A stretch of 37,888 nucleotides of DNA from Verrucomicrobiota bacterium (GTDB lineage: Bacteria > Verrucomicrobiota > Verrucomicrobiia > Limisphaerales > UBA9464). The notes below the pieces were generated by a model that searched no databases, had not been told where the DNA came from, and saw only the letters and a program-made list of their open reading frames with translations. The stretch lies in NCBI GenBank assembly GCA_947471985.1, contig CANIZL010000065.1, forward strand, positions 1 to 37,888, written 5' to 3'. Made by a program: the position numbers and the translations under genes. Below, piece by piece: positions 3,901 to 37,618 of this stretch (positions are counted from its first letter, which is position 1; each line of letters starts with the position of its first letter).

Positions 3901-4055
3901 CTGTCCGTCGTTTTTTTGGCGAGGCCTCCTAGACACCAAACACTGTCAGATCGCGTCATTTTCCTTCAGTGGAAGTTTTCTGTCTCACACCCCAGCCGGT
4001 CCCTCGGGCCCAACTCCGAATAGCGGCTTCGTTTCGGCTGGTTAGGCTGCGGCCC

Positions 4056-6329
4056 ATGCAATGGCGTGTTGGCTGGTTGGCGTTGGCGTGGGCCGGGATC
4101 GTTTGGGGCGGTCCCTTGGATGATTTTCGGGCGGCGGCGCGCTCGAAGCATGGTGCCGCGGGTGAACGGGCGGCCGATTTCCTGATCGGCAATATGCCGG
4201 ACAAGGATCGAACGGAAGTGCCGGCCGCGTTCCTGAGCGAGAATCTCGATCTGGCCCTGCAAGCGCGGGCGGAATTCCCTTGGGCGCGGAGTGTGCCGGA
4301 GGAGATTTTCCTGAACGACGTCCTGCCGTATGCCGTGTTTGATGAGCCGCGGGACCCTTGGCGCCCGGAGTTTTACGAGAAGGCGCGCGCGCTGGTGAAG
4401 GACGCCCGCTCGGCGTCGGAGGCGGCGCAGGCCTTGAACCGGCAATGGTTCAATCTGCTGAAGGTGCACTACAACACCGGACGCAAGCGGCCGAATCAAA
4501 GCCACAAGGAATCCCGCGAATTGGGCAAGGCGACCTGCACGGGGCTTTCGATCATCCTCGTGGAGGCGTGTCGGGCCGTGGGTATCCCGGCCCGGGCAGT
4601 GGGCACCCCGATGTGGGCGAATGAACGGGGCAACCACACGTGGGTGGAAATTTGGGATGGCGATTGGAAGTTCACGGGCGCTGACGAGTACGATGCGTCC
4701 GGCTTGAATCGGGGTTGGTTTGTCGGCGATGCGGCGCAAGCGAAGGCGGACGTGCCGCGGTATTCCATCTTTGCCACGTCCTGGAAGCGGGACGGCACGT
4801 TCTTCCCCATGGTCTGGGCGAAGGACAGCCAGGCGGTCGCAGCGGTCAACGTGACGAGCCGCTATGCCAAAGCCGCGCCGAATGCTTCGGCCGCCCGGGC
4901 GGTGTCGCGCTTGGGCGTGCGTTTGTTGGCCAGCCCGGGCGGTTCCCGGATGGTCTCGCGCTGGAGCGCCGTGGATGTCGCGGGACGGGTGTTGGGGGAA
5001 TCCGAAACGAAGGGGGACCGGGCGGATCTGAATGACTTGGGCCGTTTTGAACTGACCCCGGGTGCGCAGGGGTGGTTGCGATTCACCGCCGCGGGTGAAA
5101 CGCGGGAAATGGCGTTTGGGCCCATCATTCCGGGGGATCCGTTGATTGAAGCGGTGTGGACGTTCCTCCCGGTGGCTTCGACCAACGTTCTGGCACTGGA
5201 GACCTGGCTGCGGCGCCCGGAAGCGGAGCGGCCCACGAATGCCCCGGCGCTGCGGGCGGCCCTGACCAAACCGGAGGCGGAGCGCGTTCTGAGTGTTTTG
5301 GCGATGGACCGGATCCGGCAGTTGGCAGAGGAACGGCGGTCTGAATGGGAAAACGGCGCGATCACCCGCGAGGGCAAGACCCTGCGCTGGTTGGATCGGG
5401 CCTTTGGGGAGGCGCCCGCGGGCGGGCACAGTTTGTGGATTTCCATGCATGGGGGTGGCAGCGCGCCGCCCGAGGTGAACGACCAACAGTGGCGGAATCA
5501 GCTGAAGCTCTATTCGCCGGACGAGGGCATTTATGTGGCGCCGCGCGCCCCCACGGATACCTGGAATCTGTGGCACGAAGGACACATTGATCCGCTGTTT
5601 CAACGGCTCATCGAAGACTACGTGGCGTTGCGCGGCGTGAATCCCAATCGCGTCTATCTCATGGGATATTCCGCGGGCGGCGACGGGGTTTGGCAATTGG
5701 CGCCGCGCATGGCGGATCGCTTTGCGGCGGCGGCGATGATGGCGGGTCATCCTAACGAGGCGTCCTTGTTGGGCTTGCGGAACCTGCCGTTCGCCCTGTT
5801 CATGGGCGGCAAGGATGCCGCGTACAATCGCAATCGGATCGCGGCGGAGCGGACGGCGGAACTCGATCGCCTGGAAAAAGCGGATCCCGGCGGGTACGAG
5901 CACATGTCGCGCATTTATGAGGGCCTGGGTCATTGGATGAATCGTCAGGACGCCGAGGGCGTGCCGTGGATGGCGCAGCATCAACGTCAACCGTGGCCAC
6001 GGCGCGTGATCTGGCAGCAGGATGATATCGTGCACCGACGTTTCTATTGGCTGCAGGTCTCACTCGCCGCCGTGCTGAAGGATCGGGCTTTGCTGCAGGC
6101 GTCGGTGGACGACCGGACGATCCGTCTCACGGGCGACGTCCCTGCGGGCACGCGTCTGCGGTTGTCGGATGCTCTGCTGGATCTGGATCAGCCGTTGAAA
6201 GTGGAGGTCAATGGGCGCGAGGTTTTTGCGGGAGTGGTCCGGCGCACGGCCGACGCGATTCGCGAATCCCTCCGCGAACGGGCGGATGCCCCGGCGGCTG
6301 CCACCGCGATCCTCCAGTGGGATCGGTAA
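4056..6329 (+). CDS. Exported transglutaminase-like / alpha-beta hydrolase fusion
   Basis: 757 residues. An N-terminal hydrophobic stretch (MQWRVGWLALAWAGIVWG) indicates export. Residues about 100-230 form a transglutaminase-like (papain-fold) domain: Cys161 in KATCTGLS, His194 in GNHTWVEIW and Asp210 in FTGADEYD fit the Cys-His-Asp triad. A beta-rich linker (about 280-375) leads to a hydrolase with HGGG at 465-468, the nucleophile elbow GYSAGG (Ser539), Asp587 in GGKDAAYN and His626 in EGLGHWMN. Both active sites look intact. The pairing suggests peptide or amide cleavage plus ester or peptide hydrolysis in the periplasm, but substrates are unknown. The start at 4056 was preferred to 3969 because it begins the signal sequence. 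Monocistronic, with a small CPxCG gene 77 bases downstream. Confidence 0.85.
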   Translation: MQWRVGWLALAWAGIVWGGPLDDFRAAARSKHGAAGERAADFLIGNMPDKDRTEVPAAFLSENLDLALQARAEFPWARSVPEEIFLNDVLPYAVFDEPRDPWRPEFYEKARALVKDARSASEAAQALNRQWFNLLKVHYNTGRKRPNQSHKESRELGKATCTGLSIILVEACRAVGIPARAVGTPMWANERGNHTWVEIWDGDWKFTGADEYDASGLNRGWFVGDAAQAKADVPRYSIFATSWKRDGTFFPMVWAKDSQAVAAVNVTSRYAKAAPNASAARAVSRLGVRLLASPGGSRMVSRWSAVDVAGRVLGESETKGDRADLNDLGRFELTPGAQGWLRFTAAGETREMAFGPIIPGDPLIEAVWTFLPVASTNVLALETWLRRPEAERPTNAPALRAALTKPEAERVLSVLAMDRIRQLAEERRSEWENGAITREGKTLRWLDRAFGEAPAGGHSLWISMHGGGSAPPEVNDQQWRNQLKLYSPDEGIYVAPRAPTDTWNLWHEGHIDPLFQRLIEDYVALRGVNPNRVYLMGYSAGGDGVWQLAPRMADRFAAAAMMAGHPNEASLLGLRNLPFALFMGGKDAAYNRNRIAAERTAELDRLEKADPGGYEHMSRIYEGLGHWMNRQDAEGVPWMAQHQRQPWPRRVIWQQDDIVHRRFYWLQVSLAAVLKDRALLQASVDDRTIRLTGDVPAGTRLRLSDALLDLDQPLKVEVNGREVFAGVVRRTADAIRESLRERADAPAAATAILQWDR

Positions 6330-6583: not shown

Positions 6584-6769
6584 GGCGAGCGCTGGTGCTG
6601 CTGATTCTCCCCGAAAATCCGGGGGTGGAGGCCCGCAAAATCGGCGGCGGACCGCGACCCAACGGTTCTTGCTCGCGGGGCGCCAAGTTCGGTGGACTAA
6701 TAGACCGGTAATTGGCGGAAATTATCTGTAATACCCCAAGCGATTTTGCGCATATGCCGGTGGAAGCTC

Positions 6770-9700
6770 ATGCGTACATTCACTTTTCTTCACCGGCGGC
6801 TGGGCGTGGCTGCCGGTTTTTGCCTCGCTTGGGTGTCCCTGGTGCTGATGCCGGCCGGTCACGCTCAGACGTTGCGGATCAAAGACTTGGTCCGAACCAA
6901 CGGCACGGTGATCCTGGGATTTTCCGCGGAAACCAACCGGTACTACGTCTTGCTCCGCGGAAACCGCTTGGGTCAGGCCTTTCAGGCACAGGATGCCGTT
7001 CTGGGGACTGCGGGCACCGGCTTTTTGCGGGACCGAAGCTCCTCCCCGGATTTGTCGTTTTATCGGGTGCTGGCCGTTTCCCTGTCCCAGCCGCAGGATA
7101 CGGATCGTGACGGGATCGATGACGTCTACGAACTGCAGACCAAGGGGTTGAATCCGCTGGATCCGACCGATGCCGCGAAGCCGGATCCCAACGCGGCGGG
7201 GCAGACCTATCTTTCGTCGTATCGGCTCGCCAAATCCCCGCCGGCCCGCGTGGCTCGCACGTCGCCGTTCAATGGCGAATCCGGAGTGGCGGTGACGCGC
7301 GAGACGGTTTTTGAGTTCGATCAGCCGCTGGCCGCGGGCAGCGTTCTGGGGCCGACGAACCTTTACGCGACTTTTGGCGGACGCCGAATCCTCAGCCGGA
7401 CCGAGCTTTCGTCGGACCGTCGCAAGGCCACGCTCTTTTATCTGGAGAACCTGCCGGCCAGTGCCCGGATTCGGGCGACGCTGGATGGCACCGGATTGAC
7501 CGATGCGCTGGGCAAGGCCTTTGACGCCAATGGCGACGGAGTGCCCGGGGGAAGTCAGGTGGTGGATTTTGATACCCTCAGCACGACGCCGGTGGGCTCC
7601 ACGGCGGTGACGGGACGGGTGTTTGCGAGTGTCCGACTGCCCGACGGTTCCGACCGCCCGCTTAAGGGCGTGATCATTACGGTGGATGGGGCGGAGGAAG
7701 CGTCCCGCACCGTGACGGACGCAGAGGGTTTCTTCCGTTTGCAACCCGCGCCGGCCGGCCGGTTCTTTGTGCATGTTGACGGTCGTTTGGCGGTGGGCAG
7801 TTCGTGGCCAAATGGTGCGTATTACCCGGTGGTGGGCAAGGCGTGGGAGGCGGTGGCGGGGTTGACCAACAACCTCGCGAATGGAACCGGTGTGATTTAT
7901 CTGCCGTTGATTCCCGCCGATGCCTTGCAGCCGGTCTCCCTGACGGCCGACACGATAATCGCCTTCCCTCCGTCCGCCGTGGCGGCGAATCCGGCGTTGG
8001 CCGGGGTGGAAATTCGTGTGCCGGCCAATTCACTCTTTGACGACAACGGGCAGCGGGGCGGCCGGGTGGGCATTGCTCCGGTGGCGTCCGATCGTCTGCC
8101 CGAACCCTTGCCGGCGGGCATTGAACATGTGTTGGATATCACGGTTCAGTCCGACGGCCCGCGAAACTTTGACCGGCCGGTGCCGGTACGATTTCCCAAT
8201 CTGCCCAGTCCGACCACCGGTCTGAAGGTGCCTCCCGGGCAGAAGACGGCGCTGGTGAGTTTCAATCACGACCTGGGTCGATGGGAAGTCGTCGGCACCA
8301 TGACGGCCAGTGCGGATGGGCGCTTCATTGACAGCGATCCGGGTGTGGGTGTGCGCCAACCGGGCTGGCACGGCTGGCAGCGGTTGACGTGGATTCTCTT
8401 TCCGCCGCCGCCCATTTATTGGCCGCCGAATTGGTTCCCGCCGGATCCGGGTCCGTTTCCGCCCCCGTTTCCGCAGCCGCCCAATCCCCCCAAGTCGAAT
8501 CCCAATCCGCCTTGGCCGCCTTGGCCGGACTTTCCGGATGATTCGCCGAACGACTGGCCGGATTCCGGGGGGGATCCGCCGCCACTGCCGCCGTTGCCGC
8601 CCTTGGATGATTGGGATTGGCCCCCGTTGGGCGACGATACCGGTGGGGGTGATACTACGGGTCCTACGGGACCGGGGGGTGATCCCGCGGGTGACCCGTC
8701 CGGTGATCCCTCCGGGGGTGGACCCGGTTCGGGTGGTTCCGGCGGTGGCGGCCAGGCTTCGGGCGCCGCGGCGGGCTTCTTTTGCCTGACGGCCGACATC
8801 GAAAGCGGCTGCACCAATTCCGGACCGGCAGTCGCCGCGGCGGCGACCGTGGCGATCAATCCGGCGGATGGATCGAGCTATACGCTGGGCTATAGCGAAT
8901 TCAATGGCACGGTCACCGCCGTAGTGCGGTCGCGGACCTCCGGGCAGATTGTCTTCGAGACCCAGGTGCAGGCGAACCGTCCGGCGAACAGTGTGGGCTT
9001 TGGGCCCAGCCAGCAGGTGTTTGCCTATCACTACCGGCAGCCCACGGGCGCCGGCCTCGCGGGCGATGAAGTCGTCTTGCTGGCCACGCTGAGTGCCACC
9101 CAGCAGACCCATGCCTTGTCGCGGGTTATCACCATTCCCGCTGCTACGTTCAATGCCTCCTCCGTGAGCTTCAGCCCGCACGGTCGCTATATGGTTTACA
9201 CGGGCCTGCGATTGAACGCAACCATCACGGTCGTGGTGGTGGATGTGGCCACCCGGGAAATCGTTTTGAATCAAAGCGTGCCGTACTCCACCACGCCGGT
9301 GCTGGTTCGGCCCGAGGATATGGTGGAATTCGGTCCGGACTGCTCGGATCGCACGATGATCCTGCACTTTGGGGACACCCCGACATCGCTTGGCTGGTAT
9401 TTGTACAACCTGAATACCCGCACGGAAGTGGCACGGCGACGGCTCGCCCCGGGCAGTTTCAGTTCCTGGCAATTCAGTCCCTGTGGTGATGCGGTCACGG
9501 TCAATGCGGGGGCGGCGGTCCCGCGGGAATTCCTGGCGACGTTGGATGGTCGCACGCTCACCCATTTGAGCAGCGCGGGCAGTCCGGCCCGGGCGGGGGC
9601 GGGTATTGCCCGTCCGGCGGCGACCCAGACGGCGACGCGGGCCTCGGTTCGCGCGCGGTATTCGCGCGGATTGCACTACTGGATGCTGCAGGACTTGCTG

Positions 9701-12700
9701 AATGGCAAAGTGGTCAAACGCGGACGCACTGGCGCCAGCGGGGTTTTGCTGGAAGGGGAATTGCTCGCGCCCAACCGGCCCTTCCGACTTTATGTGCTGC
9801 GGGCGGCGGACCTCGCCTTGGGTCGGACCGAATTTGTGTCCGGCGACGTCGGCACTGGATTCACCCCGCCGGCTCCCATACTGGGGGCCGACAAGTCGCC
9901 CGACGCGGACGGTGACGGGTTGACGGATTTCGCGGAGCTGGTTGTGGGTTCGAACCGGCATCTCCCGGATTCGAATGGTGATGGTGTGAATGATGCGGCG
10001 GAAGTGCGGGGCGGCCTCGACCCGACGGCTGGCAGCACGTTTGCCACGGGGATTGTGGCAGCGACACCGCTCCCCGGTTCGGCGGTGGATATCTGTGCGG
10101 AAGGGGACCGCCTGGTGGTTGCGCTCGGAACGAGCGGGATCGCTGTGGTGCAGCATCCTCCGGGGCAAAATCCCACCGTGATTGGACGGGTGGCCACGGC
10201 GGGAGATGCCCGACGGGTCGCCTGTTTTGGAAACTTTGTCGCGGTGGCGAGCGGCCCATCCGGTCTCCAGATCGTGGACGTCAGCGATCCTCCCGCCGCC
10301 CGGGTGGCCTTTTTTCTGCCCCAGGTGGGTACCGCGAATTGCGTCGTCACCGCCGATGGTAATGTCTATGTCGGAACGGAAAGTGGTCAGGTCGTGACGG
10401 TGAATCTGGCGACGGGCACGGAGTTGTCCCGCTTCAGTGTGGGTGCCCCGATCCAGGATCTGAAGCTCGGCGGAGATCGACTCTATATTCTGTCGAATCG
10501 GCGCTTACTGCCGTATCGCCAGGACGGTGGCGAATGGATTGCCGCCGGTCCGGGGGTAACCAGTGGCAGCGGCGACGCCGCCGGGCGCCTGTTTATTGGC
10601 GGCGGATTTGCCTATATGACCCACGGCAACGGCTACCGGACTTTTGATCTCACGAATCCGGATCAGCCGGTCGAGCGCACTACGGGCAATGACACGCAGA
10701 TCGGTTGGCGGCAGTTGGCGCCCAATGGCAGCGGCCTTGGACTGGCAGCGGCGGGCATCAGCCAGCAGGCCGTCGAGGCCCAGGTCTATGACGTATCGGA
10801 TCCCGCACTCAATACCCAGTTTCTCACCCGCTACCAACTGCCCGCGGCCGCAGCCTCGGTCGTCATCCACCGCGGGGTCGGCTACTTTGCCGCGACCACG
10901 GCGGGTTTGCAGGTATTGAATTACCTCGACGCTGACATCGGCACCAGCGCGCCGGTCATTCGATTGGCGACGTCGTTTCCCTTGAAACCCGCACAGGTGG
11001 AGTCGGGTCGGTTTGTTGCGGTGACGGCGCTGGCCACCGATGACGTGCAGGTGCGGGAAGTTGAGTTCTATCGGGACGGCGTGCGGGTGCTGACGGACGG
11101 TAGTTTCCCGTTCGAATACCCGTTCTACGCGCCGACCCTGGCGGCGGACAAGACCAGTTTCCGGCTCCGCGCGAAGGCCATCGATATGGCGGGCAACTTC
11201 GCGTGGTCGGATGAAATCGTGGTATCGCTGCTGCCGGATCAGACACCCCCGCGGGCGCGGCCTACGGCGCCGGCCGCGAATGGTTTTGCCGTCTCACCGG
11301 ATCGCATTGGTGTCTTGTTTAACGAGCCGATTGCAGCCGATTCACTGCTGCCTGACCGGTTGACTTTGACCTTCTTGGGAGCCGATCGGCGCCTGGGTAC
11401 GGCGGATGACGTAGCGGTGGTCGGCACCGCGGTCTATCAGTCGGCGTCCCGCCTGGCGGAGCTCCGATTCCCGACCCTCACGAAGCCAGGCCGGTACCAG
11501 GCGACTTTGGAGCCAGGGGTGAGTGATCTCTCAGGGAACACTATCACCACCCGCTTGGTCTGGGCGTTTGAAGTCGTTGTCGGTACGGATAGCGACGGGG
11601 ACGGGCTGACGGATGCGTTTGAGATAGCGAATGGAATGGATCCGAAGAATGCCGACGAGAACAACAACGGCATTCCGGATTCGCTGGAGGATTTCGATGG
11701 TGACGGATTGACCAACGGTCAGGAAATGTTGATTGGTACCAATCCCCGGAATCAACGGACGTTTAATAATATCCTCGACACGCTCTACGACCAGGATGGG
11801 GACTATCTGACTAATATTCAGGAGCTGCAACTGGGCACAGATCCGATGAACCCCGACACCGACGGGGACGGGTGGAACGATGAGATTGAGGTGAGTGCGG
11901 GGAGTGATCCGCTGGTGCCGAATGCGTATCTGCCCGGGCTCTATGGCGGATTGCAGACGGGGAATGTGCTGATCTGGAGTGGAGTCAGCCCGGGGACGGG
12001 ACAAGGGAACGTGCTGCGGTTGGCGGAGAACACGGTAATGCCGGGGCGGAACACGGCGAACTTGCTGCTGCAGGGGGGAGCCAATCGGAACGGGAGCAGC
12101 GAGCACGTGGCGCGGCCGGTGGTGCGGTTGCGCGAATGGGATCCACAGGCCGGGGATTTGACGCCGTGGGAACTGCCGCGGAATGGAGCCTTCGTGATTG
12201 AGGCGGAGGATTATAACCACGGTGGCGGACAGCACGTGGCGGCGTCGGATGTGATGCCGTACTACGGCGGGACGTACGCCAATCTGAGCGGTGTGCTGGA
12301 CGTGGATTATCACAATACCGACGGAACAGAGAGCCAGGCGTACCGGCCGCTGGCAGCCGGTCGGAACGTGAATCTGTACGATAACGTGAGTGGTCGGTAT
12401 GGCCTCGATCGGCCGACGTGGACCGCGCTGGTGGACTACCGGATCGGCGGGGCGGCGGTTGGAGATTGGCAGCAGTACACGCGGAATGTGCCGGCGGGGC
12501 AGTATTATGTGTGGGCGGCGCTGTCACATCCGGGAACCAGCCCGAATCAACTGACCGGGAGCCTCGAACAGGTGACGGGGAATGCCGGACAGACCGATCC
12601 GGCGCGAGTGGTGCTCGGCTCGTTCAGTGGAACGGGCTCGGGAGCGTGGGGTTATAACAGTTTGATCCTGCTGCGGGACGCCCTGGGCGAGCCGGCGGTG

Positions 12701-12796
12701 GTGAACGCGGGGGGCGGGGCGACCACCCTCCGGTTTAATCTGGGAAGCGGTGATCTGGATTGGTTCATCCTGGTCCGAACGGATGCGATTCCCTGA
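6770..12796 (+). CDS. Giant secreted multidomain surface protein with TSP3 repeats and CBM-like end
   Basis: 2008 residues, with a signal peptide at 1-33 ending AGHAQ; the ATG at 6770 has GGTGGAAG just upstream, unlike the upstream in-frame alternative. Order: Asp-rich calcium-loop repeat (DTDRDGIDDVYEL, about 107-119); Big_5-type Ig-like domain (about 150-270); carboxypeptidase-regulatory-like domain (about 280-345); a poly-Pro/Trp then Gly/Asp/Ser linker (about 545-667); a WD-like beta region (about 670-1030); thrombospondin type 3 repeats (about 1042-1084); a LVIVD-type propeller (about 1090-1390); two Ig-like domains (about 1397-1600); more TSP3 repeats (about 1604-1720); and a CBM6/35-like end starting FVIEAEDYNHGGG (about 1807-2006). 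No membrane anchor or PEP-CTERM is seen. Probable adhesin or matrix protein; carbohydrate binding is inferred from the last domain. Confidence 0.85.
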   Translation: MRTFTFLHRRLGVAAGFCLAWVSLVLMPAGHAQTLRIKDLVRTNGTVILGFSAETNRYYVLLRGNRLGQAFQAQDAVLGTAGTGFLRDRSSSPDLSFYRVLAVSLSQPQDTDRDGIDDVYELQTKGLNPLDPTDAAKPDPNAAGQTYLSSYRLAKSPPARVARTSPFNGESGVAVTRETVFEFDQPLAAGSVLGPTNLYATFGGRRILSRTELSSDRRKATLFYLENLPASARIRATLDGTGLTDALGKAFDANGDGVPGGSQVVDFDTLSTTPVGSTAVTGRVFASVRLPDGSDRPLKGVIITVDGAEEASRTVTDAEGFFRLQPAPAGRFFVHVDGRLAVGSSWPNGAYYPVVGKAWEAVAGLTNNLANGTGVIYLPLIPADALQPVSLTADTIIAFPPSAVAANPALAGVEIRVPANSLFDDNGQRGGRVGIAPVASDRLPEPLPAGIEHVLDITVQSDGPRNFDRPVPVRFPNLPSPTTGLKVPPGQKTALVSFNHDLGRWEVVGTMTASADGRFIDSDPGVGVRQPGWHGWQRLTWILFPPPPIYWPPNWFPPDPGPFPPPFPQPPNPPKSNPNPPWPPWPDFPDDSPNDWPDSGGDPPPLPPLPPLDDWDWPPLGDDTGGGDTTGPTGPGGDPAGDPSGDPSGGGPGSGGSGGGGQASGAAAGFFCLTADIESGCTNSGPAVAAAATVAINPADGSSYTLGYSEFNGTVTAVVRSRTSGQIVFETQVQANRPANSVGFGPSQQVFAYHYRQPTGAGLAGDEVVLLATLSATQQTHALSRVITIPAATFNASSVSFSPHGRYMVYTGLRLNATITVVVVDVATREIVLNQSVPYSTTPVLVRPEDMVEFGPDCSDRTMILHFGDTPTSLGWYLYNLNTRTEVARRRLAPGSFSSWQFSPCGDAVTVNAGAAVPREFLATLDGRTLTHLSSAGSPARAGAGIARPAATQTATRASVRARYSRGLHYWMLQDLLNGKVVKRGRTGASGVLLEGELLAPNRPFRLYVLRAADLALGRTEFVSGDVGTGFTPPAPILGADKSPDADGDGLTDFAELVVGSNRHLPDSNGDGVNDAAEVRGGLDPTAGSTFATGIVAATPLPGSAVDICAEGDRLVVALGTSGIAVVQHPPGQNPTVIGRVATAGDARRVACFGNFVAVASGPSGLQIVDVSDPPAARVAFFLPQVGTANCVVTADGNVYVGTESGQVVTVNLATGTELSRFSVGAPIQDLKLGGDRLYILSNRRLLPYRQDGGEWIAAGPGVTSGSGDAAGRLFIGGGFAYMTHGNGYRTFDLTNPDQPVERTTGNDTQIGWRQLAPNGSGLGLAAAGISQQAVEAQVYDVSDPALNTQFLTRYQLPAAAASVVIHRGVGYFAATTAGLQVLNYLDADIGTSAPVIRLATSFPLKPAQVESGRFVAVTALATDDVQVREVEFYRDGVRVLTDGSFPFEYPFYAPTLAADKTSFRLRAKAIDMAGNFAWSDEIVVSLLPDQTPPRARPTAPAANGFAVSPDRIGVLFNEPIAADSLLPDRLTLTFLGADRRLGTADDVAVVGTAVYQSASRLAELRFPTLTKPGRYQATLEPGVSDLSGNTITTRLVWAFEVVVGTDSDGDGLTDAFEIANGMDPKNADENNNGIPDSLEDFDGDGLTNGQEMLIGTNPRNQRTFNNILDTLYDQDGDYLTNIQELQLGTDPMNPDTDGDGWNDEIEVSAGSDPLVPNAYLPGLYGGLQTGNVLIWSGVSPGTGQGNVLRLAENTVMPGRNTANLLLQGGANRNGSSEHVARPVVRLREWDPQAGDLTPWELPRNGAFVIEAEDYNHGGGQHVAASDVMPYYGGTYANLSGVLDVDYHNTDGTESQAYRPLAAGRNVNLYDNVSGRYGLDRPTWTALVDYRIGGAAVGDWQQYTRNVPAGQYYVWAALSHPGTSPNQLTGSLEQVTGNAGQTDPARVVLGSFSGTGSGAWGYNSLILLRDALGEPAVVNAGGGATTLRFNLGSGDLDWFILVRTDAIP

Positions 12797-30743: not shown

Positions 30744-32582
30744 TCACTGCCTGCCGTCGCGCCGGGTGTCGGTGAATGACACTTCGGGCAGTCCGCCCCG
30801 CGAGAGGTTTTGGAAAATGGGAACCCGGGCTTCCTGGGGAATTCCTGCGAGATGAAGAATGAAATCCCCGGGGCGATAGTTTTCCGGGTAACTATTCAAG
30901 ACATGCTGCTCGGTCTGCCGCACGTGGGATTGATGTTCGGGAAAAGTCTTTAGTATATGCCGCATCGTGGTTTGCTCGAGCCGGTCCCCCACCCAGTCCT
31001 CGCGATATCCGGCGGTGCCGAGGAATTGGACGGTCGTAAAATATTGGCGGGTCCAATTACAGGCTCGCGCGATAAAGACTCCACAATTGAGGCCGCAGGA
31101 ATCCGTACCCACCAGCAGATCGATCCCTTCCGGCAGCAAATCCTCCACGCGCTGGTCCAGATTGGCGATATAGGCATCGGCATCGGTCCACATCACCCAC
31201 TCCCAATCCGGTTCGTTCAGGCTCTGCAGGAGCGCCGGAATCTTACCCCAGTAGGAAGCCCGTTTCGGGTCGCGTTCAAAGGCCAGTCGACGGCAACTAT
31301 AACCGTGACGATCCGCATAGGTCTGGAGTCTTTCGCCGGAAAGAGCGAGGACATCCGCCTGGGCGTCGTCGGCTCCCGTGAGGAGCAGCAGTCGTTTCGG
31401 AGCGCTGAGTTGCGGTACTTGGGTTTTTTGGGACGCGACAGCCCAACCCGCCAGACCGCGGGGATTACTGTGTTGATCCGCCCGACGGGCGACGTCGATC
31501 TGATAGCCCTGGAGGTACTCGATGACTCCGCCCTGAAAATACGACTCAATTCGTCGGATAACGTCGTTGGCGGATATGAGATCCATGCACCGGGGCAGGT
31601 CGCCGGCGACGTCGGTGCAGCGATGCTGCGGAAGATCGAACTCGGAGCCGTCATTCAGCGGTTGGGTGCGGGACTTCCAGCAACCACCCTCACTGCAGGT
31701 TACGGTGCCCCCGGTGTGCAGGATCTGATGATCCGGGTAGGCGGTCAGGAGAGCGGGTTCACGACCGCCGGCAATGACCACGCAGGGGCGCTGAAACGAG
31801 GGTGCCGCGTAGTGCTGTCGCACGGGAACAGCCGCAGCGAGATGCATCAGCGAGGTGATACCGCACAGGACTCCCTGGGCCGAATGAACCAAACGCACCA
31901 GTTCCCGGAGCGACGTTCGCCCGCGGAGATCGAGAACGCCGTTCAAGGGCGGGTGATGATGAGCCGCCAGACCAACCTGCACGAAGAGGATACGATCCCG
32001 GTAATGGTCGACGACCTGTTGGTAACGCTCCGTAGACCACCATTTGGTCGGGGCGTCATACTTGCCCCCGGCGCCCACGATCCAATAAGGAATGCGCGAG
32101 CCGACCAATTCCTGCACCGGATCCCGCGCCAACTGTTCATTGACCGAGAGATGAATATCCCCGTTCAGTCGGGTGGGTCGGACCTCGACCTGGAGTTGTT
32201 CCCGGAACTCCTGGAGGAATAATTCAATATAGCGGGTGGTGTTGGAAATCTTACCGGCCACCAAATGACGTAGCTGACAGGTGACGTGTTCCGCGGGCTG
32301 AGTGGTGTCCGGGACGGCGGCGAGAAATGGATTGTAAAACCACAACTCCGGATGGGACGTACGGACCTCCACGGCGAAACGTCCGGGATGGGATGCATGA
32401 AGATCGCGGACGGCGCCGGTCAGAACTGTGATATCGCCGACGCCGAGGGTTGCTTCGATAACCACCCGGCGCCGCGGTGACCGTGAAGGCGCCGCGTCGG
32501 GGATGAGCAGGTCCATTAAAATGGAAGAAACAGTGGGAAATGATGCTAAATCAGGATCATGCTTACCGATTCCCAGGGACAT
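30744..32582 (-). CDS. Two-domain glycosyltransferase, GT9-like plus GT34-like
   Basis: 612 residues. Residues about 38-340 resemble GT9 heptosyltransferases (VVIEATLGVGDITVLTGAV, WIVGAGGKYDAPTKWWSTERYQ, LCGITSLMHLAAAVP). They end in a four-Cys cluster (C-x4-C-x20-C-x9-C: CSEGGCWKSR, HRC, LPRCMDL) like the iron-finger of TibC-type O-heptosyltransferases. Residues about 455-600 look like GT34 galactosyltransferases: WVMWTDADAYI with the DxD motif, LNCGVFIARACNW, then TEQHVLN and FILHLAG. It therefore probably adds two sugars or one with two active sites, to a protein or polysaccharide in the cytosol. The start is uncertain: ATG 32582 has GGAG 4 bases upstream but overlaps the preceding gene by 37 bases; ATG 32516 would remove 22 residues. 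Confidence 0.82.
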   Translation of the reverse strand: MSLGIGKHDPDLASFPTVSSILMDLLIPDAAPSRSPRRRVVIEATLGVGDITVLTGAVRDLHASHPGRFAVEVRTSHPELWFYNPFLAAVPDTTQPAEHVTCQLRHLVAGKISNTTRYIELFLQEFREQLQVEVRPTRLNGDIHLSVNEQLARDPVQELVGSRIPYWIVGAGGKYDAPTKWWSTERYQQVVDHYRDRILFVQVGLAAHHHPPLNGVLDLRGRTSLRELVRLVHSAQGVLCGITSLMHLAAAVPVRQHYAAPSFQRPCVVIAGGREPALLTAYPDHQILHTGGTVTCSEGGCWKSRTQPLNDGSEFDLPQHRCTDVAGDLPRCMDLISANDVIRRIESYFQGGVIEYLQGYQIDVARRADQHSNPRGLAGWAVASQKTQVPQLSAPKRLLLLTGADDAQADVLALSGERLQTYADRHGYSCRRLAFERDPKRASYWGKIPALLQSLNEPDWEWVMWTDADAYIANLDQRVEDLLPEGIDLLVGTDSCGLNCGVFIARACNWTRQYFTTVQFLGTAGYREDWVGDRLEQTTMRHILKTFPEHQSHVRQTEQHVLNSYPENYRPGDFILHLAGIPQEARVPIFQNLSRGGLPEVSFTDTRRDGRQ

Positions 32583-33238
32583 TCCACTCCCGCCCCACCC
32601 TCGAAGGCGCGAATATATTGGGTGGCATCCTTTAGCACGAGATCTGGAACAGCGTTCAAACCTGCAGGACGCGGATGAATTCGTGGGAGGTCTGGATTGT
32701 GCACAGCAAAGTCCACAAATTTCAATGAGAGATTGGATTTGGGATCAGTTGGGTTGTCCCGGATAATAAGCCAATTAAGTACATGGGAAGACGCTGCACC
32801 GAAACTGAGTGGGTCGGACTTGTCGGCGGGCATATCCATGACGGCCACCCCGAAACAAAACGAGCATCCCAACTCTGCGTGGAGTGCCCTCCCGTTGATC
32901 CACCCGCGGAGATAGAAGGCGATATCGTCACAATCAAAGGAGGAGGCCGGATCAAAAGGTAAGGCTACGTTCCGCCGGGTTGCAGCCCGCTTTTTCAATT
33001 TTTCCAGGCGGGGCTCGGCCTCTTGCAGGCTTCCCTCAACCGCTGGTTGAACACTCCCATGAATGGAATAAATGGAATCCAGTATCACCCATCGGCAGGG
33101 TGTGAGGGAAGCTCCTACGCTGAGACTCCATCCCCGCCACACCGCGCGTATCTCAGAAGGGCGAATAAAGTCTGAGTCTTGTATCACGACGGCATGCCCT
33201 GCACGGGCGGGAACAATCGGCGCTTGGATTTCAGGCAT
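32546..33238 (-). CDS. Unknown protein with FDCDDIAF and SHVLNWLI motifs
   Basis: 230 residues. No signal peptide. A charged helix (about 64-90) precedes a block FDCDDIAFYLRGW (101-113) with Cys103. His152 follows in SSHVLNWLI and Asp176 in LKFVDFAVHNPD. The spacing of Cys, His and Asp recalls papain/transglutaminase folds and, loosely, the agglutinin C-terminal peptidase domain, but no family can be claimed. It directly precedes the two-domain glycosyltransferase on the same strand with overlapping ends, so the two are coupled. It could modify the acceptor of that enzyme or be a peptidase acting on it. Start ATG at 33238. Confidence 0.65.
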   Translation of the reverse strand: MPEIQAPIVPARAGHAVVIQDSDFIRPSEIRAVWRGWSLSVGASLTPCRWVILDSIYSIHGSVQPAVEGSLQEAEPRLEKLKKRAATRRNVALPFDPASSFDCDDIAFYLRGWINGRALHAELGCSFCFGVAVMDMPADKSDPLSFGAASSHVLNWLIIRDNPTDPKSNLSLKFVDFAVHNPDLPRIHPRPAGLNAVPDLVLKDATQYIRAFEGGAGVECPWESVSMILI

Positions 33239-33312
33239 GATTTATAAGAGGATTAGTTCCTGAAAAATATTTGCTAACAGGCGCTTTGGCAAGCGTTAAT
33301 ACGAGACAATTT

Positions 33313-33852
33313 ATGGGTGATTCCAATTCCAAATTAGCCGTCAGCAAATTGGTGGGTGATGGCTCCGTTATACTGAGCACGGCGGATGGCGCCCCTCCAG
33401 CAAAATCAGGCTCGGTGCATTTGTTGATTGAGCCTGTCGGTCCTTTGAGCGCCGGGAACGATTTCAATTGGTGGAATCTGGTGATCATCAAGCCGGGCAA
33501 AAGCGTGAGTTTGGATGCCCGCCAGGGGCAATACGCCATTTATTTGGCCCAGGGTGACGGGGAGATCCGGTACGTCTCCAGTATAAAGGCGGTCGACGGA
33601 AAACGAGTTGTGTATCCCCAGCCCTTGAGTGCGACTGGTCGAAAGGGTTATCCTCGCGAGCACAAGAAGCCGGGCTATTTCACGATCGAGATCGTGAATG
33701 TTACGGGACCGGCTAGATCCGGCGGGGATGCCGTACCGGCATTGTTGGAACCGGTTGCTCTTCCCCCGGAGGATCTTGTCGCCTCTGTGCTTTTGGCGGT
33801 GGACCCAGGGACTACCCCAGTCCAAGGGGGCCCCCGACCTGTGGTGCATTGA
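33313..33852 (+). CDS. Hypothetical beta-rich protein
   Basis: 179 residues from the ATG at 33313 (a TTG at 33271 would extend it by 14). No signal or membrane segment. It contains a Trp-bearing stretch (FNWWNLVIIKPGKSVSLDARQGQYAIYLAQGD has alternating hydrophobics suggesting strands; about 51-82), and a Pro-rich C-terminus (about 139-179). It is divergent from the FDCDD gene, 74 bases away, and convergent with the kinase gene. Function unknown. Confidence 0.5.
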   Translation: MGDSNSKLAVSKLVGDGSVILSTADGAPPAKSGSVHLLIEPVGPLSAGNDFNWWNLVIIKPGKSVSLDARQGQYAIYLAQGDGEIRYVSSIKAVDGKRVVYPQPLSATGRKGYPREHKKPGYFTIEIVNVTGPARSGGDAVPALLEPVALPPEDLVASVLLAVDPGTTPVQGGPRPVVH

Positions 33853-33893: not shown

Positions 33894-36848
33894 TCAAGGT
33901 TGCAGATCCAGCCAGCGCACGACTTCGCTGCCGTTGCTCAGTCCGATCAGTTGTCGATCTCCTTGTGCGAACGCGAGGCGGAAGAGGGCTTGGGAATGGT
34001 CGGGCCCTGGATGAAGGTTGAGCTGCATTTGTACCCGTTCGGTTCCGGTGGGCAGGTCGAGCCAGGAGAGTACCTCGGACTCATGTGAGGCGACGAGGGT
34101 TCTTCCATCGTGGGGGAAGGCCAGGGCCATGATCGCGGTGGTCTGACTTCTCACTCGCTGCACGATTTGGTTTTTCAGTGGATCATAAATTCGAATTTCG
34201 CCACTCTCGCTGCCGACGGCAACCCGTCGTCCATCCGGGGAGACGGCCAGGCCACTCGCTTTGAGTTTCCCGGGTATTCCGGGATCGGTGAAGATGGCCT
34301 CGAGATTCCGATCGTCGCGACACGTGAAAGATCCATCGGTGGCCAATGTTACGACCACCGCGGCCGAGGGAACGTGCTCCAGCATGTAGCAGTATTGTTT
34401 TGCGATTGGCGGAGTTTGGTGAGTCCGTTGGTGCTTTAGCAGATCCCATCGGTGGAGTGAGCCATCCGCGAATTCGAGGGCAAAGGCAATTTGTTGCTCA
34501 GGGTTGACAACAATTTTCCCAATTTCAGTTCCGGCGGGCACCAAGGGTCCGCTTTCGCTGAGCAGTGTTTGATTGGTGAGTCTCCACGAGCGGACCCAGC
34601 CGGTAGCATCATAGGTCCAGAGGATCTGGTCTTGTTGGGAGAATTGAATGGGTTCAAACGAATCGGGAAGAATTAGGGAAGGGCGTTCGGCGGCTGAGTC
34701 TGACCAGACCCCGACGTTGCCATTCGTGGTAGTGGCAGCCCAGCGCATGGAGGTTTGCCCTAAGGCGATATTGCCAAAGCTTCCGGTCCAGAAGCTCTTT
34801 AACCGGGTAGGTATCCGGGCGCTCGGGGTCATTTTCCAAGTGCGTATTTCGCCCTCGGAATCGCCGCTAATTAAGGTACGACCGTCCTCTGACCAAACCA
34901 AGGCTGAGACGGTTGGCGCATGTCCGGTCAGGTTCTCCAGCAGCTCCCCGGTCTCGCTGGCCCAAATTCGGATGACTCCGTCGGTGCCACCCGTGGCGAC
35001 GCGTTGACCATTTGGTTCCACGGCAACCGTGTTGCAGGCAGTCAAGGCATTTGGATGCTTGAGGCTTAAGACACGGTGTGTACGGGTGTTGACGATTTGT
35101 GGAGATTCAGTGGTCCCATTTGCCACCCCAACTGTTTGACCGTCGTCGGAGAGGCTGATTTGGAGGGCATCGTGTTGCAAAATCACTTCGGCGGTCGGTG
35201 CGGTTATCGGCAGTCGCCAAAGCTCGAGCGTTATGCGGTTTGTCCACGGGTTGATCTGGGTGTACCTGACATTGGCGAGAGCAGTGCCATCTTTCGTCAA
35301 TGTTGCGTGTTTGATGGCATCAGTGTCTTTGCTATTGGGTAGCCATAATTGCTGCTTCTCCGGCGAATGTGCTATGCCGTGTACCTCCCAGCTGGTTGGC
35401 GATCCAACGGGCTTTAGGAGCATCCATTGGCTTCCGGCGGCCGCTTGCAGGTATTCGTATCCGGATAGGCGTGCTGGCTGATTTTCGGCGAGACCCATTT
35501 CTATAATATTGGCTGAATTTAGAACCATGGGGTAGGAATTATCGTTAACAAAGGGTCCGAGGTTTACGATGTTGGAGGCAATCTTTAGTGCATTTGTGGA
35601 ATTAGGGGGCCAGAGCCACACAGAACGATCGTGCATTAGTGCGGCCAGTCGGGAACCATCGGGTGAGATGGACAGCTGGGTAATAGCTTGCTTCGGACCT
35701 TGTTGGCGGGTGTCGGGGAATCCCAGCGCCAATTGGTGCAGGTAGCGCCACTCCAAGGGGCGCTGATTTGGCGTTTCGGCTGCTAGTGTTTCCAAGCTGG
35801 CTCGGGCTTCACGATGGCGGTTTAACAATAGGCTGAATTGGACACCTAAATAAGTCGCCTGACGTAATTTGTTTAGTGTGGCTTCCGCTTGTTGCTTCAG
35901 GCCCCGTTGCATTTCTGCAATGCTGACGGAAACCACGGACAGTGCGACCAAAAACACCGCCGCCCATTTCAACCACCGGGCCTGGCGACGCAGTTGCAGC
36001 CAGCCACGGACGCTGGTGCCGGCCTCCACCAACAGCAGGTCGTTCAGCAATTCCTGCGCGTTCGGGTAGCGGCGGGCAAGGTTGGGTTCCGCCGCTTTCA
36101 GGATGATCTCATTTAGTTCCCGCCAGCGGGGCATTTCGTCCGGCGGTACGGCCCGACCGGAGAGGATCGGGAAGTCCCGGGCTGGTTTTCCGGTGGCCTT
36201 TTCGTAGAGGATTTTGCCCAGCGCAAAAACGTCCGCTGCAGGTTGGCCGGGGCCTTCGGGCGGCACATAGCCGGTCGTCCCGACCTGCGTGGCGCCTTCC
36301 CGAATGTCGGTCACCAGTCCGATATCGCCGAGTTTCGGAACGCCGCCGACGTAGACGATGTTGGAGGGTTTGAGGTCCCGGTGGACGAGTCCCTGTTGGT
36401 GTAGCGCCTGGAGGGCCCGGGCCAGATCCACCCCCAGGCGCAGCAGTTCGTCGGACGGGAGGAACTGGCGGCGATCCTTGTCGGCGCGCAGCGTCCGCGC
36501 GACGTAGTCCACCGGATTGAAGGTCGATCCGGCGGTGGCGGCCGCGTCGTCCGCCAATTCCATGATATAATAAAAATACCCGGCGGCATCGTTTCGGCCC
36601 ACGTGCAGGACTCGGAGCAGGCGGGAGTCGGTCAGGCAGATGCGGGTGTAGAACTCAATGGCCTTGAATTCGCGATTGAAGGGGTCCGCATCGGTGAAGC
36701 GATCCCGCCAGACAATCTTCGCGGCGCGGTACAGGCCAGTGATGCTTTGCACCAGCCAGACTTCGCCGTAGCCACCCCGGCCGATGCGGCGAAGGACCTG
36801 GTAGTCAGGCAGGATTGGGGCAGTGGGATCCAGCGGGATCGAGGTCAC
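33894..36848 (-). CDS. Membrane Ser/Thr protein kinase with WD40 propeller
   Basis: 984 residues starting at GTG. Residues 1-280 are a Hanks-type kinase: glycine loop GRGGYGEV (23-30), Lys44 in AAKIVW, catalytic HRDLKPSN (Asp158), and GDIGLV in place of the usual DFG (Asp175 kept, Phe to Ile), then PPEGPG. A single transmembrane segment spans about 293-310 (WAAVFLVALSVVSVSI). From about 360 to the end are WD40-like repeats (for example RTLISGDSEGEIRTW, RVATGGTDGVIRIW, RVAVGSESGEIRIY), probably one or two propellers. The kinase lies in the cytosol and the propeller outside the membrane, if the topology is Nin. It is divergent from a sigma-factor gene 146 bases away. Confidence 0.92.
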   Translation of the reverse strand: MTSIPLDPTAPILPDYQVLRRIGRGGYGEVWLVQSITGLYRAAKIVWRDRFTDADPFNREFKAIEFYTRICLTDSRLLRVLHVGRNDAAGYFYYIMELADDAAATAGSTFNPVDYVARTLRADKDRRQFLPSDELLRLGVDLARALQALHQQGLVHRDLKPSNIVYVGGVPKLGDIGLVTDIREGATQVGTTGYVPPEGPGQPAADVFALGKILYEKATGKPARDFPILSGRAVPPDEMPRWRELNEIILKAAEPNLARRYPNAQELLNDLLLVEAGTSVRGWLQLRRQARWLKWAAVFLVALSVVSVSIAEMQRGLKQQAEATLNKLRQATYLGVQFSLLLNRHREARASLETLAAETPNQRPLEWRYLHQLALGFPDTRQQGPKQAITQLSISPDGSRLAALMHDRSVWLWPPNSTNALKIASNIVNLGPFVNDNSYPMVLNSANIIEMGLAENQPARLSGYEYLQAAAGSQWMLLKPVGSPTSWEVHGIAHSPEKQQLWLPNSKDTDAIKHATLTKDGTALANVRYTQINPWTNRITLELWRLPITAPTAEVILQHDALQISLSDDGQTVGVANGTTESPQIVNTRTHRVLSLKHPNALTACNTVAVEPNGQRVATGGTDGVIRIWASETGELLENLTGHAPTVSALVWSEDGRTLISGDSEGEIRTWKMTPSARIPTRLKSFWTGSFGNIALGQTSMRWAATTTNGNVGVWSDSAAERPSLILPDSFEPIQFSQQDQILWTYDATGWVRSWRLTNQTLLSESGPLVPAGTEIGKIVVNPEQQIAFALEFADGSLHRWDLLKHQRTHQTPPIAKQYCYMLEHVPSAAVVVTLATDGSFTCRDDRNLEAIFTDPGIPGKLKASGLAVSPDGRRVAVGSESGEIRIYDPLKNQIVQRVRSQTTAIMALAFPHDGRTLVASHESEVLSWLDLPTGTERVQMQLNLHPGPDHSQALFRLAFAQGDRQLIGLSNGSEVVRWLDLQP

Positions 36849-36994
36849 GGTGAACGAGATAGGGCGGCGTTGTGGGGACGACTAGCAAGAATGTTCTATG
36901 GAGTCGCGGCGGTGGAGGTGTAGGGCTCGTACAGGACTTGATTTATTTTCATAATTTCTGTCAGAGCTGCGCTCCATCCGGCGTTTTGTCCGGT

Positions 36995-37618
36995 ATGAGC
37001 TCAAGAACGGTTTTGATGGAGGGAGAAACCACCCTGGCGACGTCGACCACCCTGATCCGGGACATTATCGATCCCGCCCGGGGTACCCGGTGGACGGAAT
37101 TTGATCGGATCTATCGGCCGATCGTCTTTGGCATCGCCCGCAAGGCGGGATTGAATTTTCACGATGCGGAGGACGTGACCCAGGATGTTTTCCGGGATTT
37201 GAGCCGGAACTTGGCGGGCTTTGAGATCCGGGAACGTCGGGGGTCGTTTCGGCGCTATCTGTTCAACTTGGTGCGGTGGCGGCTGAATTCGAAGTTCGAC
37301 GAGAAAACCGTGGAGGCGGCACGGACGGTGGAATTGTTGGATCCCGAAATGGAGGCCAATCCGTTGGAGTCGCTGGCGGCGGAACCGCTGATTCCCCATG
37401 ACGCCGAGGCGGAATTCACGGAAGCTGTGAACCAAGCCATGCTGGTGTTGGCGCGCGAGCTTTCTCCGAAGCATGTCCAGTTGTTGGAACTCTATTTTTG
37501 TCAGGAATGGCCGGCCAAGCGGGTCGCCGAAGCGCTGGGTATTTGTACGGCGACGGTTTTTACCATCGCCCACCGGCACAAGCTGCGGCTGCTGCGGGAG
37601 ATTCTCCGGCGGCTGTAA
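36995..37618 (+). CDS. ECF-type RNA polymerase sigma factor
   Basis: 207 residues. Region 2 is at about 33-104: FDRIYRPIVFGIARKAGL, DAEDVTQDVFRDL (57-69) and RRYLFNLVRWRL. Region 4 is at about 144-203, with a helix-turn-helix from WPAKRVAEALGICTATVFTIAHRHK. The linker is rich in Glu and Ala. ATG 36995 was chosen over ORF starts upstream, which add 41 unlikely residues; an ATG seven codons later is an alternative. It is divergent from the membrane kinase, an arrangement seen repeatedly in Planctomycetota and Verrucomicrobiota where kinases control ECF sigma factors; direct control here is an inference. Confidence 0.9.
   Translation: MSSRTVLMEGETTLATSTTLIRDIIDPARGTRWTEFDRIYRPIVFGIARKAGLNFHDAEDVTQDVFRDLSRNLAGFEIRERRGSFRRYLFNLVRWRLNSKFDEKTVEAARTVELLDPEMEANPLESLAAEPLIPHDAEAEFTEAVNQAMLVLARELSPKHVQLLELYFCQEWPAKRVAEALGICTATVFTIAHRHKLRLLREILRRL

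Follow-up and report, generated by a model that had tools for sequence, protein, structure and literature searches.

The 37,888-nt stretch of Verrucomicrobiota DNA analysed here (the window, whose coordinates are used throughout) encodes on its reverse strand a fused glycosyltransferase (GT), in which a GT9 domain is followed by a GT34 domain (30744..32516). Directly upstream lies the gene for a 230-amino-acid (aa) protein with papain-type Cys, His and Asp motifs, the C-H-D protein (32546..33238). Both halves of the enzyme exceed their Pfam cut-offs, which confirms a fusion predicted in an initial annotation of this DNA. We give about an even chance to the reading that the enzyme is a dedicated small-protein glycosyltransferase, and that its locus holds a protease-like protein at the place where some relatives encode a putative acceptor. 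The GT9 and GT34 domains are already known, as is the protease domain found in MOA, a mushroom lectin; what appears to be new is the domain combination, a GT9 family marked by four cysteines and the linkage of this family to small genes, none of which was found in the open-licence PubMed Central (PMC) literature.

The fused enzyme and its relatives

In a Pfam hmmscan, the one polypeptide matches GT34 (PF05637) at E 2e-17, with 64.2 bits against a cut-off of 23, and GT9 (PF01075) at E 9.7e-7, with 28.8 bits against a cut-off of 22. Its true start is probably the Met at 32516, 29 nt past the stop of the upstream gene, because homology begins shortly after this residue; the listed open reading frame (ORF) runs to 32582 (612 aa) and would make the two genes overlap by 37 nt. 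In the resulting 590-aa version, which sets the residue numbering, the GT9 half (GT-B fold) covers residues 1-346 (31479..32516, reverse strand) and the GT34 half (GT-A fold) residues about 374-590 (30747..31397, reverse strand). The latter resembles the GT34 enzymes MNN10/GMA12 and the xyloglucan xylosyltransferases in exceeding the PF05637 cut-off, in its DxD motif and in its sequence matches to the xyloglucan xylosyltransferase structure 9p3j (E 5.9e-7) and to 6bsu, while it differs from them in being bacterial and fused behind a GT9 domain.

An AlphaFold2 (AF2) model of the enzyme has a mean predicted local distance difference test (pLDDT) score of 68.5, good over the GT9 half, mostly low over the GT34 half, and below 50 at residues 270-278. 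The GT9 half matches the fold of 3tov (Foldseek E 5e-10; VIA Z 23.6, root-mean-square deviation (rmsd) 3.2, 270 residues aligned), and VIA also matches it to 1psw (Z 21.2) and to WaaC, 2h1h (Z 19.6). The PBCV-1 glycosyltransferase 2p73 is among the Foldseek matches (E 3e-5), presumably through the GT34 half. The 50 VIA matches listed include no GT-A row for the GT34 half, and a single domain can fill such a list.

The fusion is not peculiar to this DNA. Counting matches of any kind, 41 of 145 genomes, the enzyme's own included, match the enzyme (seven only weakly or over a short stretch, E 5e-10 to 1e-3), and the full-length fusion with both halves is present in G089 and G010 (G numbers denote genomes and L numbers loci) at 43-45% identity. 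A profile-guided scan of named genomes yielded 295 candidate stretches, among them 185 relatives, of which the best 80 were retained; together with 40 fetched loci these make 120 loci and 99 distinct enzymes, or 100 with that of the window. Domains were counted over these 100 enzymes with hidden Markov models (HMMs) built from the same loci. A second glycosyltransferase domain is carried by 39, while 61 have neither a GT34 nor a PF11051-like domain. GT34 occurs in eight (window, L024, L082, L085, L035, L062, L080 and L134) and a PF11051-like domain alone in 31; Pfam confirmed PF11051 (Mannosyl_trans3) in nine of ten fused proteins sent, the tenth, L025, being a GT9-GT34 protein. The two-domain GT9-GT34 build of the window is rare, being shared only with L024, L082 and L085.

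A quick tree of 99 rows (L062 was omitted as short; 39 of 96 inner branches are open) gives the window and L024 a deep, unresolved branching. The fewest changes on it are four for having GT34 and seven for fused versus unfused; a correct tree would thus imply repeated gain or loss of the second domain. Records with a four-Cys GT9 domain come from Verrucomicrobiota, Gemmatimonadota, Acidobacteriota, Planctomycetota, Bacteroidota and Pseudomonadota, these names being taken from record titles, mostly of metagenome-assembled genomes, some of which may be misbinned. No four-Cys GT9 half was found in the plasmid records searched.

The four cysteines (C274, C279, C300 and C310; 31587..31697, reverse strand) had been noticed as an iron-finger-like cluster beside a DxD-bearing half. 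An alignment of 21 members shows no variation at any of the four. Counted strictly by column, all four are present in 91 of the 100 members, and C279 and C300 in all 100; six of the nine misses have the first cysteine one residue off and three (L099, L131 and L144) are without the fourth, and with a one-residue shift allowed the four are found in 97. The DxD motif of the GT34 half (D445 and D447, within WTDADA; 31176-31184, reverse strand) is part of a WxDxD-type site found in 8 of 8 GT34-bearing members. In the GT9 half, H225 and E253 are present in all 100 members, and D28 and K158 in 99 (one gap each). The iron-finger label can be kept as an analogy only: the iron-binding cysteines of TibC are residues 339, 342, 358 and 370, spaced C-x2-C-x15-C-x11-C (excerpt of PMC4358343), and although their order is similar, the spacing in the window, C-x4-C-x20-C-x9-C, differs.

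TibC also represents a rival explanation, in which the enzyme is a TibC/AAH-type autotransporter heptosyltransferase (BAHT) acting on a large surface protein, for example the product of 6746-12796, which the initial annotation gave as 6770-12796 and suggested as a possible target. The GT-B GT9 fold and four conserved cysteines near the domain end are common to both, TibC has a protein acceptor (excerpt of PMC4358343), and its structure 4rap is among the best fold matches of the GT9 half (VIA Z 19.6, rmsd 8.5, 274 aligned). We nevertheless consider this explanation very improbable. The enzyme, unlike TibC/AAH, is fused to a second glycosyltransferase and has relatives linked to small Ser/Pro-rich genes. 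The Cys spacing differs as well, and TibC is not among the PDB matches listed, at E up to 10, for a profile built from 21 sequences. NCBIfam lists no BAHT model for the window protein and five relatives, although it is unchecked whether the library holds such a model, and no autotransporter domain is present among the immediate neighbours scanned. The large protein itself, 18 kb away, bears TSP3, Big_5 and Big_7 repeats; no genetic link to the enzyme was found beyond the shared window, and we no longer regard it as the target.

Two further architectures were noted among the relatives. L134:6953-10888 encodes a 1311-aa Cyclobacteriaceae protein with a GT9 domain, two PF11051-like domains and a GT34 domain, and the frame just upstream of it terminates in PSSSSSN. 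In L090:4861-6756 and L105:245-2179, a four-Cys GT9 domain is followed by a C-terminal part of ~290 aa, the two parts being similar to each other by eye; their sulfotransferase-like look was rejected, as Pfam gives GT9 only.

Small genes beside the relatives

A peptide or small-protein acceptor is suggested by gene neighbourhoods: tiny Ser/Pro genes are linked to fused GT9 enzymes, and peptide exporters to the enzymes of one clade. Small genes of a first kind encode [FY]SP[KRSQ]P and, in most cases, a Ser/Pro tail. They lie within 500 nt upstream of 16 of the 99 enzymes, all 16 fused, where 0.26 would be expected (the rest of the loci has 12 matches over 2.4 million strand-bases); as this FSPxP motif was chosen after seeing the loci, the count describes a linkage and is not a blind test, and related loci among those counted are not independent. 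A profile of 11 such peptides gave six matches in 145 genomes (up to 45 candidates scored per genome). Five are strong, adjoin the enzyme and are the profile's own members, so the search shows specificity only; the sixth, in G085, is marginal (E 1e-3) and comes from a genome that the list of matches to the enzyme does not include. The other two-domain GT9-GT34 fusions, L082 and L085, have first-kind peptides with DSPSRR/DSPRKS repeats.

Peptides of a second kind, recognized by eye at L077, L130, L100 and L037, combine a Cys/Thr/Pro-bearing start with a helical-looking end. The third kind, of the form [LI][KR]DLK...GG...SSP, was seen by eye in six of six loci of an unfused clade (L049, L053, L054, L089, L092 and L137), three of which a narrower pattern caught. 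Relatives of HlyD and of Peptidase_C39-ABC (ATP-binding cassette) proteins are encoded on five of these six contigs, the sixth, L137, being only 3.6 kb long; weaker C39-ABC matches at six other loci are possibly plain ABC transporters. No family was found for the small peptides in Pfam (0 of 5 sent) or NCBIfam (0 of 3).

Glycocins are S- or O-glycosylated ribosomally synthesized and post-translationally modified peptides (RiPPs) made with GT2-type transferases. The relatives are like them in that a small peptide gene adjoins a glycosyltransferase and, in one clade, a C39-ABC exporter; they differ in that the enzymes are GT9, with or without GT34 or PF11051, and no precursor peptide was found in the window.

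Taken together, the relatives beside tiny Ser/Pro-rich genes suggest a dedicated sugar route for small proteins. Most likely, the GT-B GT9 half would place the initial sugar on Ser/Thr residues of a small acceptor dedicated to it, which in many fused relatives would be the short Ser/Pro-rich protein encoded directly upstream, and the GT-A GT34 half would next extend this sugar. The GT9-first order is suggested because the GT9 domain is constant and the second domain exchangeable. The two domains, their conserved residues, the recurring gene order and the association of relatives with small genes are observed directly; we infer the acceptor, the donor, the linkage and the order of action, as well as the catalytic competence of the C-H-D protein. 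A broader proposal, which we hold more tentatively, is that four-Cys GT9 enzymes form a new class that glycosylates short Ser/Pro-rich peptides, some of them C39-ABC-exported, and builds longer glycans with fused GT34 and PF11051 domains like those of the eukaryotic Golgi. Such a system would be glyco-RiPP-like and under sigma/kinase control, with a MOA-type processing protease in the window's branch. If true, this would be a peptide or protein glycosylation route with its own enzyme family, recognizable by the four-Cys GT9 domain, and the small acceptor genes would be directly testable.

In many fused relatives, a sigma-factor gene, a small gene, the enzyme gene and a kinase-WD40 gene follow one another in that order. 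On the enzyme's strand, a kinase domain begins no more than 700 nt downstream of 25 of 39 fused versus 2 of 61 unfused members, and the end of an extracytoplasmic function (ECF)-type sigma domain is found at most 1000 nt upstream of 17 of 39 versus 0 of 61. These counts are to be read with the sequence available (four of the 39 fused loci have under 1 kb upstream and two under 1 kb downstream), with kinase and sigma HMMs trained partly on the counted loci, and with related loci that are not independent.

The same neighbours can be read differently: the enzyme may build a surface polysaccharide or lipid-linked glycan, similar to a lipopolysaccharide (LPS) core, with the small genes as regulators of the sigma/kinase system rather than acceptors. 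The frequent kinase and sigma genes are consistent with this, Ser-Pro repeats near a kinase could be phosphorylation sites, and the GT9 fold is that of LPS heptosyltransferases; the fold, the GD motif and the HLAAA motif are all shared with WaaC/WaaF. Against this explanation, position 220 is Val in 79 and Ile in 21 of the 100 members, where LPS heptosyltransferase II (1psw), in a weak alignment, has the Asp of the DSG motif, which we take to contact the donor. WaaC/WaaF also differ in that the enzyme has an extra four-Cys stretch and scores far below the LPS heptosyltransferase equivalog cut-offs in NCBIfam (TIGR02195, 15.9 bits vs 134.6 for the window); five relatives miss every such cut-off listed. 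The unfused clade, moreover, lies within C39-ABC/HlyD clusters with GG-leader-like peptides. We therefore regard the polysaccharide explanation as unlikely, at about half the weight of the small-protein reading.

Two loci carry additional small-gene features. L027:1749-8570, checked with Pfam as one of the exporter-bearing contigs, is a RiPP-like cluster with a cNMP-Peptidase_C39-ABC protein, HlyD, a GG-leader-like peptide with a Ser/Pro core and a four-Cys GT9, and relatives of this type of cluster occur in L049, L053, L054 and L092. In L131, a frame upstream of 6929 encodes a long Ser-rich protein, a possible acceptor.

The C-H-D protein

The gene upstream of the enzyme (32546..33238, reverse strand) had been predicted to encode a protein of papain/transglutaminase type, and its 230-aa product contains both motifs on which that prediction was based, FDCDDIAF and SHVLNWLI, with C103, H152 and D176 as the candidate catalytic residues. 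The codon score of the ORF is below those of the enzyme, kinase and sigma genes, and its own frame beats the other five. Across 145 genomes, searches with the single sequence recovered no protein but this one, and those of genome_contigs came back empty. A 238-aa ORF with the same motifs, however, lies 32 nt before the L024 fusion, in G010; BLASTP relates the two at E 2e-6 for the pair alone, and this ORF is the best of 83 in L024 (E 1.3e-4). The gene pair thus recurs once. A two-row profile of these proteins gave two strong matches in 320 genomes of the order, the window and L024, each no more than 32 nt from a GT9-GT34 fusion, and in 387 genomes across the phylum it matched the D-C-D-D stretch of two shorter proteins, L155 (E 1.3e-4) and L156 (E 1.1e-3). 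At most eight and seven candidates per genome were scored in these two sets, respectively, so a copy may have been missed. Weak matches in ten genomes of the order (E 0.003-0.08) and in G468 were not counted, since D-C-[DEN]-[DE]-x-[ASG]-F is in no frame of the 11 loci. When the 100 enzyme loci were scanned without filters, the window and L024 were the sole matches; none was found in phage records or viral contigs, and PHROGs gave only E 0.2 and 0.41.

The two shorter proteins connect the pair to a known domain. PF18021 (Agglutinin_C) matches L155 (2.5e-8) and L156 (3e-10) over its cut-off and L024 below it (E 0.012). A four-row profile of the window protein and its three relatives reaches PSL1a, 3phz (E 5.3e-4), and MOA, 6tsn (0.02) and 2iho (0.041). 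The catalytic pair of MOA is Cys215/His257, anchored by Glu274 (excerpt of PMC8244254). At the equivalent places, C103 and H152 are invariant in four of four sequences, and D176, placed by eye, is common to the window and L024, with Glu in L155 and L156, again by eye. The C-H-D protein has the D-C-D-D-type motif, the His followed by x-x-N-W/F and the acidic third residue of MOA/PSL1a (excerpts of PMC8244254 and PMC4764322). It differs in having Asp in place of the Glu of MOA (excerpt of PMC8244254), an extra N-terminal region and no lectin domain seen, and in being bacterial and detectable only via intermediates. Through these sequence intermediates, it is a distant relative of the papain-like protease domain of MOA. 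PF18021 gave no match in 313 genomes of the order, window and G010 included, and the model is thus blind to these copies; in 387 genomes of the phylum it gave four matches at E up to 0.01, two of them over the cut-off. The MOA protease domain has been called fungal-specific (excerpt of PMC4764322), and the present relation, if true, would extend it to stand-alone bacterial proteins, two of them adjoining a glycosyltransferase.

This relation also bears on an earlier suggestion, that enzyme and C-H-D protein form a protein glycosylation or glycan-trimming pair. A protein or peptide acceptor is supported by analogy, because the relatives have small Ser/Pro-rich genes and C39 exporter clusters; trimming is abandoned, because the homology of the upstream protein points to a protease domain and not to a glycosidase. 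In the window and G010, the C-H-D protein occupies the slot of the relatives' putative acceptor peptide, most likely as a partner protease or pseudo-protease that would cut or hold the modified protein. From this slot it could instead serve the fused enzyme as its acceptor or as an inactive carrier. Its gene lies 29 nt (window) and 32 nt (L024) upstream, as with the Ser/Pro peptides, and none of the 150 of 325 candidates scored in the rest of the genome is a convincing Ser/Pro peptide. The protein, on the other hand, is without a Ser/Pro-rich tail, and two diverged copies preserve D-C-[DE]-D, His and Asp where MOA has its catalytic residues, which favours an active site. Of the two roles, that of a processing protease seems to us the more probable, and we give the acceptor or carrier role roughly one chance in five.

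Several observations weigh against the small-protein reading as a whole, in addition to the choice of motif and the kinship of loci mentioned above. There is no FSPxP gene upstream of 23 of the 39 fused enzymes (three of these start at a contig end). Unrelated genes precede many unfused members, for instance those in records of Gemmatimonadota and Acidobacteriota, with no such peptide seen, so the acceptor idea is without support there. Patterns for FSPxP, LKDLK and Ser/Pro-repeat peptides found none in the window and L024, the sole exception being one overlapping frame that fits the loosest pattern, and the best candidate scored in the window's genome reaches E 0.042. Val or Ile rather than Asp at position 220 means that the enzyme may use a donor other than ADP-heptose. 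On its own, the C-H-D protein of the window matches no Pfam family, PF18021 included, its single-sequence AF2 model (pLDDT 30) was discarded, and the pair with the enzyme is known from two genomes.

The stand-alone bacterial Agglutinin_C proteins (L155:351-1752 and L156:1360-3113) are ~145 aa long. No glycosyltransferase was noticed beside either in the 3.1 kb fetched for each (ORFs by eye). A lipoprotein-like gene, alike by eye, precedes each, with no Pfam family over cut-off.

The gene block and other features

Upstream of the C-H-D gene, a divergent ORF of 193 aa (33271..33852, forward strand) without a Pfam family has a homologue at the equivalent place in L024 (pairwise E 1e-5; first in rank among 83 ORFs, E 0.001), and a profile of the two has no match in the remaining enzyme loci at E up to 1. 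It is followed by a Ser/Thr kinase with WD40 repeats (33894..36848, reverse strand; Pfam). The window and L024 share the order kinase-WD40, divergent ORF of ~190 aa, C-H-D and fused enzyme, a block of four genes that two genomes from one family have conserved. Both differ from the arrangement common among fused relatives in that the kinase is upstream of the enzyme, not downstream. Beyond the kinase, a sigma-70-like (ECF-type) factor (36872..37618, forward strand) scores just below its Pfam cut-off (22.6 vs 24) and has relatives among the sigma factors encoded upstream of fused enzymes. Elsewhere in the window, 3969-6329 encodes a 786-aa protein bearing a Transglut_core domain (PF01841).

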